From NCBI RefSeq assembly GCF_001552675.1, contig NZ_BCRQ01000016.1, forward strand, positions 1-46,231: 46,231 bases of DNA, written 5' to 3'. This document shows, in pieces, positions 15,524 through 23,891 of this stretch. Below the pieces are notes generated by a model that was not told the origin of the DNA, made no database searches, and saw only the letters and a list, made by a program, of their open reading frames with translations. Both the position numbers and the translations under genes were made by a program. Source of the stretch: Alicyclobacillus sendaiensis NBRC 100866. GTDB lineage: Bacteria > Bacillota > Bacilli > Alicyclobacillales > Alicyclobacillaceae. Positions within the stretch are counted from its first letter, which is position 1. Each line of letters begins with the position of its first letter.

Positions 15524-16645
15524 GTGAACGAGTGGCTGGATTGGGTGCTTTGGGCCGTGGTGGCGATTTCGGCATTCGGAGGCTTTCTACGCGGGTTTGC
15601 GCGCGAGTCGCACCGGCTCGTGCGGACTGCGGCGTGGGTCGCCGAGGTGATCGCTTCGTCCGCCGTCGCGTTTGCGGCAAGCCGCTCTATCCGCAACTTC
15701 GTTCTGCAGGACGGCCGGAGCTCGACCATGCCCGATTGGCTCAAACATCTCGCCGCCTTCTGGCAGCAGTCGCCGAGGCTGTGCAACTGGATTGCGTTTC
15801 TCGCGGCCTACCTCATCATTTCGTCCGCCATCGGGGCGGTGTTCGCGCCGCTTTTCGCCCGGTGGATCCGGCCGCGCCGACCCGTGCGCGCCTGGAGCCG
15901 CGTGGGAGGACTCGTGGTTGGCGGGATGATGGGCGCCTTCCGCGCCGCAGCCGTCGGCGCAGGCCTGTTTCTCATCCTCCAATACGTGTCGGCGCCGGCC
16001 CTTGCGCGCGCTTGCCAGGCCTCGCCCGCGTACCGCTGGCTGTCGCGTCACGTCTACACGCCGTGGCTTCGCCCCATCGCCGAGCGCGAAATGCCGGTAT
16101 TGGCCAAAGGCGCGGCCCAGACCGTGGCCGCCGACATCTCCCTGTTCGTCGTCCCCTTAGGCCCTGGCGAGGAGGCGGGCATTCTCGTCATTCCCAAGCC
16201 GGTAGCGGAAAAGGCGCGCGCCATCACGAGCGGTCTCAGCTCGCCGTACGCGAAGGCGCGCGCCCTGTACGAATGGGAGATTCACCACATCCATTACGAC
16301 TGGAAGAAATATGACGACTATGTCTACGCCGGCAAATGGGACGCCCAGTCCCCGCTCACCACGCTTCAAACCGGCAAGGGCGTATGCGCCGACTACGCGC
16401 TCCTCTACGCAGACATGGCGCACGCCGTGGGCCTCACCGTGCGCATCGACGAGGGCGTAGCGCTGAGCGGCGGCGTGGAAGGATCCCACGCCTGGAACGA
16501 GGTGTGGATCCCGAACGAGCACCGGTACATCCTGGTGGACCCCACCTGGGGTTCCGCGCAGGACGCGTGGTTCGACGTGCCGCCCGCCATCTTCGACGAG
16601 ACGCACAGGCTCACGACGCGCATCACCATCTACGCGTCCACCTGA
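15524..16645 (+). CDS. CvpA-like membrane domain fused to a transglutaminase-like protease domain
   Basis: 373 residues in two parts. Residues 1 to about 160 hold four hydrophobic segments and the WAVVAISAFGGFLRG start typical of CvpA/colicin-V-production membrane proteins. From about residue 220 a transglutaminase/papain-like fold follows, with the Cys-His-Asp triad visible in GVCADYALL, GSHAWNEVW and ILVDPTWG. Such domains hydrolyse or cross-link peptides at the cell surface or wall. The fusion would place a thiol enzyme on a CvpA-type membrane anchor. The GTG start at 15524 has TGGAGGTG upstream. Its last 16 bases overlap the end of the convergent histidine kinase gene. A DUF-type membrane-transglutaminase of another family is possible, but the triad is clear. 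Confidence 0.85.
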   Translation: MNEWLDWVLWAVVAISAFGGFLRGFARESHRLVRTAAWVAEVIASSAVAFAASRSIRNFVLQDGRSSTMPDWLKHLAAFWQQSPRLCNWIAFLAAYLIISSAIGAVFAPLFARWIRPRRPVRAWSRVGGLVVGGMMGAFRAAAVGAGLFLILQYVSAPALARACQASPAYRWLSRHVYTPWLRPIAEREMPVLAKGAAQTVAADISLFVVPLGPGEEAGILVIPKPVAEKARAITSGLSSPYAKARALYEWEIHHIHYDWKKYDDYVYAGKWDAQSPLTTLQTGKGVCADYALLYADMAHAVGLTVRIDEGVALSGGVEGSHAWNEVWIPNEHRYILVDPTWGSAQDAWFDVPPAIFDETHRLTTRITIYAST

Positions 16646-18585
16646 ATCGGTTCGTGTTTCAGCGGCAGCCGCATGCGGATGTGCGTGCCCTGAGGGCTGG
16701 ACTGGACCACGCCGACCGTCCCGCCGTGGGCGATGGCGATGAGGCCGCAGAACGTGAGCCCAAGGCCCAATCCCCCCTTTTTCGTGGAGCTGTACGGGAC
16801 AAAGATCCGGTCCCACCGCTCCCTCGGGATCCCCACGCCGCTGTCGATCACGTCGATGTGCAGCTCCTCCGCCTCAATCCTCACCGTCACGGCAACCTCG
16901 CGGCGGGCGCGATCATCCGGGATGGCGTCAATGGCGTTTCGGAGGAGGTTCACGATGGCGCCGAACAGCTTGTCTTCATCGACGTCGAGGTACACGTGCC
17001 GCTGCCCGGTCTCGTTGTGGAACGAGAGCTTCACGTGGCGGGCTTGGGCCATAGAAGAACACAGGCCCACGGCGTCCGATACCAGGCGCACCACGTCGCA
17101 CCGCCTGACGGTCAGCATGCCGTTGCGCAAAAACGCCGTGAAGTCGCGCGCGATGCGGTTGGCGTATTCGGAGGCCGACCGCATCCGCTCGAGGATCTCG
17201 CGCGCCTTCTCGCCGAGGTTCGGCTCGAGCCTCGGCAACAGCTCCGCCATCTGCCGCATCGCGGCGAGCGGCGTGCCGAGCTCGTGCACGAGCGCCTGCG
17301 TGGCCATCACAAGGTAGTCCACGCCTCTCCCTCGCTCGCGCCGGGTCAGCTCGCGCAGGTACTCCACGAGCTTTTCCGACATCTCGTTGACGTGCGCGGC
17401 GAGCACGCCAATCTCGTCCGATCGCGCCACGTCCACGTGCGCCGCGAAGTTCCTGTCGGCGATTTCATCCACCGCCTCGGTGATCCGCTTGAGCGGGCGC
17501 GTGATGAGTTCGGCGCCGACGAACGAGAGCACCGCGGTGAGCACGAGGAGCGCCCCGCCCAGAATGGCCATGTCGTGGAGCAGATCGGCAAGCTGCGCGG
17601 TGATGAGGCGGTAGTTCATGACGATCTCGACCACGTACGGGCTGCCTTCCCCCAATTCAGGGATAAACGCCTTCATGACGGTGGTGTGGTCGACGTGATC
17701 GAGCGCAGTCTGCATATGGCCCGTGGACAGAGCGCGGTCCTTGAGCCGGACGTCGAGATCGTGATGGGCATACCGATACGCGCCGTACATGACGGGCTGA
17801 TTGGCGATATCGATCCAGGAGACGCCCTTGTACGAGTAGCGGATGGGCTTTTCGTCGAACGTCCGGTTCAGCACGGCGATGGACAGGATGTCGGGCTCCG
17901 TCGCCACGATGTGGCGAATCGTGCTGTTGACGCTGACCACCTGTTCATAACCGGGGATGGACGTCTGCACGTAAAACGGATCGATGATGTAGTTCGTCGT
18001 GCCGTCGTAGTAGTAGCCCCACTTGTCGACTTTGGACGGGTCGGAGGTGGCGTTGGCGAACGGCCCGGACCAGTAGTTTTTCTCGGCGGTGCCGTACGTC
18101 GACGCCTGGGGCTTGCCGGCGAGCAGATCGCGAAACGCGATGTACCATTTGCCCATGCCGCGGGTCGACAGGCCTATCTCGTGGGGATCCGACGAGCGCA
18201 CGCCGACGATGTCGTCCGCGGTGGGCGCGAGAAGCGTGATGCCGCTCACGCCAAGCTCTGCCGACAACTGGCGCAGCTGTTCATTCGTCACGTCCTGCCA
18301 ATGCGGCGGCAACTGCTTCTCAATCGCGATGGACGCGATGCGCAGCTCGTTGCCGAGCAGCTTGTCGATGTAGGCTTGCCCGGCTTCGCTCGATTCGACC
18401 TCAAGCTCTATCTGTTGCGCGAGGAGTTGCCCCTGCTTTTCCGCGCTCTTGAGCATCTGCTGCCTGGCGACGGTGTAAAACAGCGTCCCGCCGAGCGCGA
18501 GCACCACGAGCATGGCGCCAAAGAGGATCGCGATGATCTTGTAGCGCAGCGAGAAGCGGACGCGGGGATGAGCGTTCAGCTGCAT
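16630..18585 (-). CDS. Sensor histidine kinase with extracellular Cache-type domain, orphan
   Basis: 651 residues. A short cytoplasmic start is followed by a membrane helix (about 15-38), an extracellular domain of about 300 residues with the layout of dCache/PDC sensors, a second helix (about 336-360), a HAMP linker, the dimerisation/phosphoacceptor box VMATQALVHELGTPL with His434, and an ATPase domain with N box (LLRNAIDAI), G1 (DSGVGIPRERWDRIF) and G2 (KKGGLGLGL). It should sense a small extracellular molecule and phosphorylate a regulator. No response regulator is adjacent; the kinase starts 12 bases after the HTH-guanylate kinase gene and is surely co-transcribed with it. The ATG at 18585 has AAAGGCGG upstream. 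The HELGTPL box resembles orphan kinases that feed phosphorelays. Confidence 0.92.
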   Translation of the reverse strand: MQLNAHPRVRFSLRYKIIAILFGAMLVVLALGGTLFYTVARQQMLKSAEKQGQLLAQQIELEVESSEAGQAYIDKLLGNELRIASIAIEKQLPPHWQDVTNEQLRQLSAELGVSGITLLAPTADDIVGVRSSDPHEIGLSTRGMGKWYIAFRDLLAGKPQASTYGTAEKNYWSGPFANATSDPSKVDKWGYYYDGTTNYIIDPFYVQTSIPGYEQVVSVNSTIRHIVATEPDILSIAVLNRTFDEKPIRYSYKGVSWIDIANQPVMYGAYRYAHHDLDVRLKDRALSTGHMQTALDHVDHTTVMKAFIPELGEGSPYVVEIVMNYRLITAQLADLLHDMAILGGALLVLTAVLSFVGAELITRPLKRITEAVDEIADRNFAAHVDVARSDEIGVLAAHVNEMSEKLVEYLRELTRRERGRGVDYLVMATQALVHELGTPLAAMRQMAELLPRLEPNLGEKAREILERMRSASEYANRIARDFTAFLRNGMLTVRRCDVVRLVSDAVGLCSSMAQARHVKLSFHNETGQRHVYLDVDEDKLFGAIVNLLRNAIDAIPDDRARREVAVTVRIEAEELHIDVIDSGVGIPRERWDRIFVPYSSTKKGGLGLGLTFCGLIAIAHGGTVGVVQSSPQGTHIRMRLPLKHEPIQVDA

Positions 18586-18597
18586 GCTGTCCCGCCT

Positions 18598-19392
18598 TTA
18601 CGCGTGCTTTCTCGTACAGGTGCGAATGATGTGGGCGAGTTCCGCCGTGGCCGTCGCCACGTCGTCGTTGAAGATGAGGAAATCGAACTGATCCGACAGC
18701 GACTCCTCGTATTTGAGGCGCTGCATGCGGATGCGGATGTCCTCCTCTTTGTCGCCGCGATGGTAAAGCCTTCCCTCCAGATCGTCGAGACACGTGGGGC
18801 GGATGTAGATCAGGATGACGCGATCGCCGAACACGCGCTTCATGTTGAGCGCGCCGTTCACGTCGATGTCCTTGATGATGATGCGGCCCTCGTTCAGGGC
18901 TCGCTCGTAGCTCAACAGGTGCGTGCCGTACAAGTTCCCGTGGATGGTCTCGTACTCGAGGAATTCGCCCCGCTCCGCCATGCGCATGAACTCTTCGCGG
19001 GACACGAAGTAGTAGGGATTGCCGTTCGACTCACCCGGCCGCATGGGCCGCGTGGAAAAAGACGGGATGAAGGTCAGGCCGAGATCGTACCGATCCCGGA
19101 GCGCATTGATGAGCGTGTTTTTTCCTGCCCCGGACGGCCCGGACAGGATGAAGAGCAGGCCCTTCGTATGCGTCTCCCCCTCTGGCTCGTAGCTCATGAG
19201 ATCCGACAGCTTGCACGAGAGCGCGTCGCAAATGCGTTCTAACACCCGGAGATCCACGCGGGTGATGACGTTTTTCTTCATCGCGTAGAGCGTGTTCTTG
19301 TTGACACCGGACCGTTTCACCAGATCGGGAATTCTCCAGTTCCGCTCCGCCAGGAGCCGATCTAGGTGAAAGCGAATATGGCTCACGGGCAT
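18598..19392 (-). CDS. Fusion of a Cro/Xre-type helix-turn-helix domain with guanylate kinase
   Basis: 264 residues. Residues 5-67 form an Xre/Cro-like DNA-binding domain (DLVKRSGVNKNTLYAMKK as helix-turn-helix, then LERICDALSCKLSDLMSYEP). Residues 77-264 are guanylate kinase: phosphate loop GPSGAGKNT (85-93), GMP-binding SFSTRPMRPGE and NPYYFVSREEF, LEYETIHGNLYGT, and the IDVNGA strand. Ordinary guanylate kinase is about 200 residues without an N-terminal extension. The GMP and ATP pockets look intact, so the protein may be an enzyme that also binds DNA, or a transcription regulator sensing GMP, GDP or (p)ppGpp. The ATG at 19392 is close to its GGGG site; the GTG two codons later (19386) is an alternative. 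The histidine kinase follows after 12 bases. Confidence 0.88.
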   Translation of the reverse strand: MPVSHIRFHLDRLLAERNWRIPDLVKRSGVNKNTLYAMKKNVITRVDLRVLERICDALSCKLSDLMSYEPEGETHTKGLLFILSGPSGAGKNTLINALRDRYDLGLTFIPSFSTRPMRPGESNGNPYYFVSREEFMRMAERGEFLEYETIHGNLYGTHLLSYERALNEGRIIIKDIDVNGALNMKRVFGDRVILIYIRPTCLDDLEGRLYHRGDKEEDIRIRMQRLKYEESLSDQFDFLIFNDDVATATAELAHIIRTCTRKHA

Positions 19393-19418
19393 CCATCCCC
19401 GCAGACAAGTTTCTAATC

Positions 19419-19447
19419 AGTATACTGAGTTCAGGTGCAATTGTACA
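19419..19447 (-). promoter_or_regulatory. Probable sigma-A promoter of the HTH-guanylate kinase operon
   Basis: On the minus strand TGTACA (19447-19442) and TATACT (19424-19419) are spaced by 17 bases, about 26 bases before the start codon at 19392. The -35 matches four of six consensus bases and the -10 five of six. Confidence 0.5.
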
Positions 19448-19499
19448 GGCATCGTTGGACAACGCGGCGATAGGCGCCGCATGGGAAGGAGCGTTGCCC

Positions 19500-22193: not shown

Positions 22194-23891
22194 TTGAACC
22201 ACGGTTTCCGCCGCGCCTATCCCTCTGCCCTGCTCGCCCTCGGGCTCACGGTTCCGTTCTGCGCAGCCTGGGGCTTGTACGTTCAGACCCACAGCCTGCT
22301 CTGGGTCGTCGTCGCCGTGGCGTGCGGCCTGGAATTCTTCCCGCTCGAGCTGCCCGGCGGGCGGCAGTGGTCCACGTCCGTCTTCTGCTACGTGTGGGCC
22401 GCCGATCAGCTGGGTTTTGGGGCCGCGAGCACCACCATCTTGTTCAGCGTGATCGCAGCTTTCCTGCGCTCTGCCGAGGGCAAGCTCACGGCCGCCCACT
22501 TGAAGCACCTGTTCATCGCGCTCGGCACGCACCAGCTCGCGCTCATCCCGGCGTACGCGGCACTCCACCGCGCGCTCTTCCTGCCCTATCTGATTCGATC
22601 CGCCCTGGCCGCCTTGATCTTCGAATTCTTGCGCGCCGCAGCCCTCGCCCTCATGCAGAGCTCCACGCGCCGGCTGCGCGACTTCGCGGCGGCGTTTCGC
22701 GGTCTTCACCCGGCGGCGTTTCTCATCCCCGCGTCTCTCACCGCGCTCATCTCCGCGCGCGAGACCGACTGGACCGTCACGCTGCCCACCGCTGCGCTCT
22801 TCGTCGGCTTCCTCTGGCTGTCCCGCGCCCGCGCCCATCTCGCCGACGAATGCGAGTCCACTCGCCAGGTGTACCGCGTCCTCGCGGAACACTCGGCCGA
22901 TCTCGTCCTCATCGCCGATCCGTCCGGCCAGATCTCCTTCGCGTCGCCCGGCTTCCTCGCCTCGGCCGGCCTCAGCCGCGAAACGCTCGTCGGCCGCTCC
23001 TTGTTCGATCTCGTCGCGCCGGAAGACTTTGCGCGCTTCGACGAACTCTTCACGCCCTCGGGTGCCGACGGCCAGGAGCACGAGCTGGCGCTCGAAATCG
23101 ATGGCCTGCGCGTCGACGTCGCGCTGCGCGTGACCTTCATCTCATCGGGCGGGCCCCATTCCTCGAGCTATCTCCTCCAGGCGCGCGACCTCGCGCCCTG
23201 CCGCCTACGCGCAGCCGACCGCCTGCGAGAAGAGCGGCTGGAAGCCGTCGGCCACCTCGCCGCGAGCATCGCGCACGAGTTTCGCAACCCTTTGACCACC
23301 GTGATGGGTTTTGTGCAATTGTTTCGCTCGCAGTTCGACGAGGCTGCACCCGGCGCGTACGAGGCCATCTGGGCCGAGCTCGAGCGCATGAAGGACGTGA
23401 CCGATTCCCTCATGGTCCTCGCCAAGCCCGAGGCCGTCCAACCCATTCCGTGCGATCTCGCCGACGTGGCCCAAGCCGCCCTCCGGGCGTGCGACGCGCT
23501 CGCGCTCGAACGAGGCATCTCGGTCGATCTCGGCCCGCTGCAACAGGCCCCGGTGCTCGGCCACCCGGGCCAACTGCGGCACATGATGGTTCATCTCCTG
23601 CGCAACGCCATCGAAGCGGCCGCGGAGACGCACGGGCGGGTGGTTCTTTCGACGGTGGCCACGGAGGCCGAGGCCATCGTGCACATTCTAGACACGGGGC
23701 CCGGCATTCCGGACTCCGTGCTCGAGCACCTCGGCGAGCCGATGTACAACACGCAGGAAAAGGGCACAGGGATGGGCCTTATGGTGGTGCATCGCATTGT
23801 GCAACAACACGGCGGCAAGATCCACATCCGGCGCACCGAGGCCCCGAGCGGTAGCGCGGTGGAAGTCCGCCTTCCGATCCACCGTGGGTGA
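22194..23891 (+). CDS. Membrane-bound PAS sensor histidine kinase (sporulation-kinase type), orphan
   Basis: 565 residues. The first 215 contain about six hydrophobic segments without a large outside loop, followed by a PAS domain (VYRVLAEHSADLVLIADPSG to about residue 330), a HisKA box SIAHEFRNPLTTVMGF with His361, and an ATPase domain with N box (HLLRNAIEAA), G1 (DTGPGIPDSV) and G2 (EKGTGMGLMVVHRIVQQHGG). The phosphoacceptor region and the EKGTGMGL ending are those of KinA-KinE-type kinases that start the Spo0F/Spo0A phosphorelay in endospore formers. No response regulator is nearby, as is usual for such kinases. TTG is the only plausible start near the AAAGGAG site at 22175-22181; the ATG at 22185 is out of frame and reads only three codons. 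Confidence 0.92.
   Translation: MNHGFRRAYPSALLALGLTVPFCAAWGLYVQTHSLLWVVVAVACGLEFFPLELPGGRQWSTSVFCYVWAADQLGFGAASTTILFSVIAAFLRSAEGKLTAAHLKHLFIALGTHQLALIPAYAALHRALFLPYLIRSALAALIFEFLRAAALALMQSSTRRLRDFAAAFRGLHPAAFLIPASLTALISARETDWTVTLPTAALFVGFLWLSRARAHLADECESTRQVYRVLAEHSADLVLIADPSGQISFASPGFLASAGLSRETLVGRSLFDLVAPEDFARFDELFTPSGADGQEHELALEIDGLRVDVALRVTFISSGGPHSSSYLLQARDLAPCRLRAADRLREERLEAVGHLAASIAHEFRNPLTTVMGFVQLFRSQFDEAAPGAYEAIWAELERMKDVTDSLMVLAKPEAVQPIPCDLADVAQAALRACDALALERGISVDLGPLQQAPVLGHPGQLRHMMVHLLRNAIEAAAETHGRVVLSTVATEAEAIVHILDTGPGIPDSVLEHLGEPMYNTQEKGTGMGLMVVHRIVQQHGGKIHIRRTEAPSGSAVEVRLPIHRG

Follow-up and report, generated by a model that had tools for sequence, protein, structure and literature searches.

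The window, a stretch of 46,231 nucleotides from Alicyclobacillus sendaiensis, encodes a guanylate kinase (GMK) that carries an N-terminal helix-turn-helix (HTH) DNA-binding domain. A distinct GMK with a GKNT loop, fused to a Cro/C1-type HTH, has probably taken the place of the ordinary gmk in most Alicyclobacillus and probably serves as a trigger enzyme that represses its own gene. Comparison among genomes establishes the fusion, its status as the sole gmk, the lack of the canonical gene at the loci that were read, selective constraint on the HTH, and a conserved promoter element; autogenous repression is our best reading of that comparison, and we consider it the likely one.

The HTH-guanylate kinase frame

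The fused coding sequence (18598..19392, minus strand; 264 aa) begins with ATG and has zero internal stops. It joins an HTH_26 (Cro/C1-type) domain (residues 9–71; 19180..19368, minus strand; Pfam E 3.5e-19, 69.2 bits versus a cut-off of 22) to a guanylate kinase domain (residues 80–257; 18622..19155, minus strand; Pfam Guanylate_kin, E 3.1e-36, 125.2 bits versus a cut-off of 25.2) that belongs to the guanylate kinase fold. The protein also scores 169.3 bits with the NCBIfam guanyl_kin equivalog TIGR03263, above its cut-off of 160.45. A sequence-only reading of this DNA had described an Xre/Cro HTH at residues 5–67 joined to a complete guanylate kinase in one 264-residue frame, and Pfam and NCBIfam bear out the joined architecture. 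Its assignment of the HTH was right as to the Cro/C1 type, but the HTH_3 model stays below its cut-off (15.1 versus 23), the family is HTH_26, and the domain extends to residue 71. The P-loop GPSGAGKNT (residues 85–93; 19114..19140, minus strand), which had been called intact, indeed is, and it does not vary among the 14 aligned fused proteins. The same alignment holds S111, R115, R118, E121, Y127, E146, Y155, T157, D175, and D177 invariant, which are GMP-site residues by comparison with yeast Gmk.

The fused frame is open and free of stops in 17 genomes, 14 of the same genus and 3 of a second genus, and a sequencing error or spurious join between the two parts, which the earlier reading had named as a possible refutation, is therefore excluded. 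By sequence and structure model, the protein combines an enzyme and a DNA-binding domain, as a trigger enzyme does. The system was thought to be undescribed, and searches of the open-licence PMC literature, a body that mostly leaves out subscription papers, likewise returned no description of an HTH-guanylate kinase fusion.

The fused gene as sole guanylate kinase

A second, ordinary gmk was sought in the organism's own genome (G000; 2.79 Mb, 99.95% complete), and the single Guanylate_kin match there is the fused gene. The protein thus looks like the essential housekeeping GMK of the cell, with no extra paralogue, rather than a dedicated sensor, and its sole-gmk status implies catalysis of GMP + ATP to GDP + ADP. 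The suggestion that it might be a transcription factor reading the GMP/GDP or (p)ppGpp level, or a moonlighting kinase, is narrowed accordingly; the protein is plausibly enzyme and regulator both and might read these nucleotides, whereas a role as dedicated sensor looks unlikely. The reservation that this might be the only gmk, with the extension a linker, proved correct in its first half only, since a conserved HTH domain makes up the extension.

We searched 41 family genomes. One Guanylate_kin match each, in a frame of 272–297 codons, was found in 14 of the 15 same-genus genomes, G000 included; the exception, G001, has its single match in a frame of 203 codons, and G020 likewise has one match, in a long frame. 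A profile of the fused protein (A1) detects the HTH part, with a single match per genome, in 14/15 genomes of genus g1 and 3/3 of genus g7. The A1 match begins at residue 64 in G022, which has an unfused relative, and at residue 72–75, covering the GMK only, in 22 other family genomes including G001. In G019 (91% complete), neither Guanylate_kin nor A1 found a GMK, perhaps owing to an assembly gap. Named genomes with the fusion are those of Alicyclobacillus fructus, hesperidum, tengchongensis, sacchari, acidiphilus, suci, fastidiosus, mali, and sp. ALC3, along with MAG YS1.bin19.

Beyond the family, among the matches listed for a class sample of 200 genomes, the HTH part lies in an open frame only in nine genus members, and the 12 listed matches that start at residues 27–60 all have stops inside; a phylum sample of 398 genomes gave, at E 1e-47, 11 matches besides G000, all from residue 64–67, and an ordinary GMK fused to an unrelated HTH would escape both searches. 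A contig scan yielded 48 loci, of which 23 frames were read and 10 are fused, all 48 being checked only for the recognition-helix string of this HTH. The viral scan returned a single weak match, spanning residues 51–163 of the fused protein.

GMK-like proteins with a GKNT loop were also seen in Clostridia (L131, L157, and L161). The L131 and L157 frames have long C-terminal extensions, that of L157 looking ParB-like by eye. Another GKNT-loop relative outside the order (L174; G077:C1:295920-296471) occurs in a genome with a second GMK match.

Probable displacement of the canonical gene

The gene order in G023 is yloC-remA-gmk-rpoZ-coaBC-priA, in which family matches identify yloC and remA, while the names rpoZ, coaBC, and priA are presumed from the B. 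subtilis order and the look of the proteins. We read the canonical locus in 10 of the 17 fused genomes (nine of the genus and G020). In all nine genus genomes gmk is missing between yloC and rpoZ; rpoZ directly follows yloC in eight of them, and in the ninth (L112) the ORF caller listed no rpoZ. The arrangement yloC-remA-rpoZ, again with gmk missing, is found in G020 and in two second-family genomes (G028 and G031), and a pattern scan of the G022 remA locus found yloC, remA, and rpoZ and did not find gmk. G001 keeps an ordinary gmk between yloC and rpoZ, without remA. RemA (PF04025) was detected in 0/15 genus genomes (G000–G014) and in 10/10 of the other family genomes searched.

Since the fusion is the sole gmk and the ordinary gene is gone from the loci read, the GKNT-loop GMK-HTH appears to have displaced the housekeeping enzyme. 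We infer that the canonical gmk was lost at least two times; every such case that was read has a GKNT-loop GMK at another locus. Like ordinary Gmk (TIGR03263/PF00625), the fused protein has the full domain, the P-loop, the GMP-site residues, and sole-copy status; it differs in its N-terminal HTH, in its GKNT loop as against GKGT in the eight ordinary family Gmks read, and in having its own promoter outside the yloC-remA-gmk-rpoZ locus.

Of 99 GMK domains extracted, 79 entered a tree and the other 20, which were duplicates or poor rows, were dropped. The fused proteins form one clade (99/89), in which the unfused L127 from MAG HOG9 is nested beside the g7 type (100/98), and a 99/92 split separates this clade from ordinary family GMKs. 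By parsimony, this suggests one fusion followed by HTH loss in HOG9, although two separate fusions could also account for it; long branches in the tree make its deep joins uncertain. A shared pattern, F[ND][PS]x[FY][KR]RxREG, occurs in the linkers of L045, L125, L126, and L127, suggesting that the HTH was placed before an older extension.

Selection on the HTH domain and its modelled fold

Across six close species, pN/pS values are 0.040/0.387 for the HTH, 0.020/0.415 for its helices 2–3, and 0.015/0.402 for the GMK; by this comparison the HTH is under purifying selection. The recognition-helix residues N31, N33, T34, Y36, K39, and N41 are invariant in 14 proteins. Modelled alone, the HTH consists of five helices (pLDDT 83.4), and the structures closest to the model are VanUg (3tyr; E 9.5e-05, TM 0.75), Stl, and CylR2 (1utx; TM 0.76). 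The domain thereby models as a VanU/CylR2/SinR-like fold. It has in common with the HTH_26 Cro/C1-type regulators of this fold a five-helix HTH and a conserved recognition helix, but in the fused protein HTH_26 heads a metabolic enzyme.

Synonymous change in the same six species is low at codons 1–8 and 72–77 (5.0/71.7 and 0/60 sites, pairs summed, versus about 0.39 for the HTH). Very few sites are involved, and the pattern may reflect chance or a translational or regulatory constraint.

A conserved element in the gmk promoter

We assign from the sequence a putative −35 hexamer, TGTACA (19442..19447, minus strand), and, 17 bp away, a putative −10 hexamer, TATACT (19419..19424, minus strand). 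A −10 of the form TATA[AC]T is present in 17/17 fused promoters. All 17 also carry the motif TCCAAYGAWSNNTGTAY at the −35 or −10, 14 of them exactly and 3 with one mismatch; it stands upstream of gmk in 14/14 fused genus genomes (11 exact, 3 with one mismatch) and at 3/3 g7 loci, all exact. Genes neighbouring the motif differ in lineages other than that of the window. The strong copy of the candidate operator in the window, TCCAACGATGCCTGTAC (19443..19459, minus strand), coincides in part with the −35 region and with the TTG start (19455) of a divergent glycosyltransferase frame. A degenerate second copy with five mismatches (19422..19438, minus strand) lies 21 bp downstream and overlaps the −10. 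In the A. acidocaldarius, hesperidum, and acidiphilus types the strong copy is at offset 35 from the −10 hexamer, whereas the suci/fastidiosus and g7 types have it at offset 14; in each case the other of these two positions holds a degenerate copy (3–6 mismatches).

The 17 promoter rows are related and represent about five lineages, and the dinucleotide shuffle tests were run on five lineage representatives out of the 17. Across these five, the 17-mer motif scores 55/68, which 0/1000 shuffles reach; the scores of 10-, 17-, and 20-base words were reached by 0/1000 shuffles and that of the 12-base word by 2/1000. The region upstream of yloC, taken as a control, showed no excess over shuffles (304/1000). 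The rpoZ upstream control also exceeded its shuffles (0/1000), we think because that stretch runs into conserved yloC coding sequence. As one half of each copy, TGTAY, falls on the −35 or −10, part of the conservation belongs to the promoter, and we therefore scored the left ten bases alone. In this test, made after the 21-bp spacing had been noticed, offset 21 ranks first of 98 over the five lineages with 18 mismatches (next 26, mean 33.9). Row by row, the left half of the weak copy is unremarkable in most rows, with a background chance of 0.058 in 11/17 rows and 0.18 in one.

The unfused HOG9 gene (L127; same upstream region as L233 of G022) keeps TGTGTATAAT as its −10 and differs from the motif by four mismatches at offset 14, its best match, and seven at offset 35. 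On this evidence the HTH and the motif are missing together, in one case.

A 12-bp palindrome over the −10, TCAGTATACTGA (19417–19428), was also considered as an operator. Only the six closest genomes have it in perfect form, the others showing GTGTATACTG or GTGTATAAT at the −10, and we therefore treat the palindrome as a by-product of the −10.

Neighbouring genes

A HAMP-HisKA-HATPase sensor kinase (16630..18585, minus strand) starts 12 bp past the gmk stop and is a possible co-transcribed neighbour. It directly adjoins the fused gmk only in the closest species. A conserved operon of the two was rejected, another ORF intervening in L033, L036, and L041 and the kinase being absent beside gmk in L034, L037, L038, and L042. 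A second, different sensor histidine kinase (PAS-HisKA-HATPase) lies near gmk at 22194–23891, and colicin V production-type and transglutaminase-like domains occur in a single 373-aa frame at 15524–16645.

Sites elsewhere in the genomes and alternative explanations

We scanned the 14 fused genus genomes and 11 other genomes for sites with at most one mismatch, using the reversed pattern as a control. The fused genomes contain 53 sites, of which 14 are at gmk, leaving 39 versus 14 for the control; the other genomes contain 35 versus 23. Seven of the 39 are all inside ORFs. The remaining 32 comprise 24 in open frames of at least 200 codons, which in GC-rich DNA are no proof of genes, and eight in a frame of fewer than 150 codons or none (L271, L279, L280, L282, L283, L290, L293, and L295). 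One of the 24, L284, lies just before the first start codon. Among the 39, we saw no second target conserved across lineages; for sites outside long frames, any recurrence is confined to the sister species G003 and G006. Away from gmk, a single exact motif occurs in the fused genomes, inside a 518-aa ORF of G011 (A. sacchari), and at two mismatches G000 has 16 sites versus 14 for the control. From these comparisons we take the candidate operator as private to gmk, with a few further real targets possible.

The excess of non-gmk sites over the control, together with the eight outside frames of 150 codons or more and the placement of L284, favours a wider regulon, in which the HTH is real and the protein senses the guanylate state, regulating purine or other genes from several sites that include its own promoter. 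We give this reading little probability, given the near parity with the control in G000 at two mismatches, the location of most sites within long frames or ORFs, their poor recurrence, and the presence of PurR throughout the genus. A PuR_N match occurs in 15/15 genus genomes, and the fused GMK is for that reason rejected as a substitute for PurR; neither PuR_N nor a phosphoribosyltransferase-like domain is among the 16 Pfam families of the domain scan of the fused protein. PurR of Bacillus resembles HTH-GMK in joining a nucleotide-pathway domain to a DNA-binding part, and it reads (p)ppGpp/PRPP; however, it has a phosphoribosyltransferase fold and no kinase, and it is separately encoded in these genomes.

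Small HTH proteins of this fold dimerise, and PDB titles call E. coli GMK oligomeric, so that the HTH might be an oligomerisation or nucleoid-tethering module of an ordinary kinase, without sequence-specific regulation. The invariance of its six recognition-helix residues in 14 proteins, the stronger constraint on helices 2–3 than on the whole HTH, and the conserved promoter element make this unlikely. Another transcription factor could instead bind the motif, recognition by the HTH itself being only predicted, with the HTH doing something else or being a relic. We think this improbable, as the motif is at gmk in 17/17 fused promoters, has no other conserved location, and is missing from the nested unfused gene, and a pN/pS near 0.1 is not expected of a relic. 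It is very improbable that kinase activity has been lost to leave a pure nucleotide-sensing regulator: the fused protein is the sole GMK of its genome, scores above the equivalog cut-off, and keeps the P-loop and the presumed GMP-site residues (roles by comparison with yeast GMK). The precedent for such a regulator would be PurR, in which, according to PMC8789054, the phosphoribosyltransferase-like part is the effector pocket of a DNA-binding protein.

A putative autogenous trigger enzyme

In the autogenous reading that we prefer, a dimer or higher oligomer of HTH-GMK would occupy two sites spaced by 21 bp (two helical turns), overlapping the −35 and −10 of the gmk promoter, and would thereby repress its own gene. 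Two sites on one helix face, straddling the −35 and −10, are as a repressor would use. GMP occupancy, or closure of the kinase, might weaken binding, such that GMK is made when GMP accumulates, and (p)ppGpp binding could act in the opposite direction; both the ligand and the sign of regulation are guesses. PMC8789054 describes inhibition of GMK by (p)ppGpp in Firmicutes.

Known trigger enzymes of E. coli, among which PMC8249747 includes PutA, BirA, NadR, PepA, and PyrH, resemble the HTH-GMK candidate as enzymes that also act on DNA. PyrH, a UMP kinase, is like GMK a nucleoside monophosphate kinase. According to PMC8249747, PutA binds only the putA-putP spacer, and PutA and PepA are single-target regulators. 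Compared with the members described there, HTH-GMK is a different enzyme with a different DNA-binding part, and its DNA binding, repression, and ligand control are putative only.

More tentatively, and with rather less confidence than we place in autogenous repression, the sole essential GMP kinase may be a ligand-gated repressor of its own gene that brought its own operator after displacing the ordinary gmk. A one-protein loop would then set guanylate flux at the GMK step, with the active site possibly sensing GMP or (p)ppGpp. Comprising a single protein and a single promoter, it would make a simple system for asking whether a kinase active site gates DNA binding, and a natural set of fused genes, an unfused gene with a lost motif, and the ordinary gmk of G001 makes the hypothesis directly testable. 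GMK converts GMP to GDP, and a DNA-binding head of its own would link guanylate metabolism directly to transcription and would extend the short list of trigger enzymes by one from purine metabolism.
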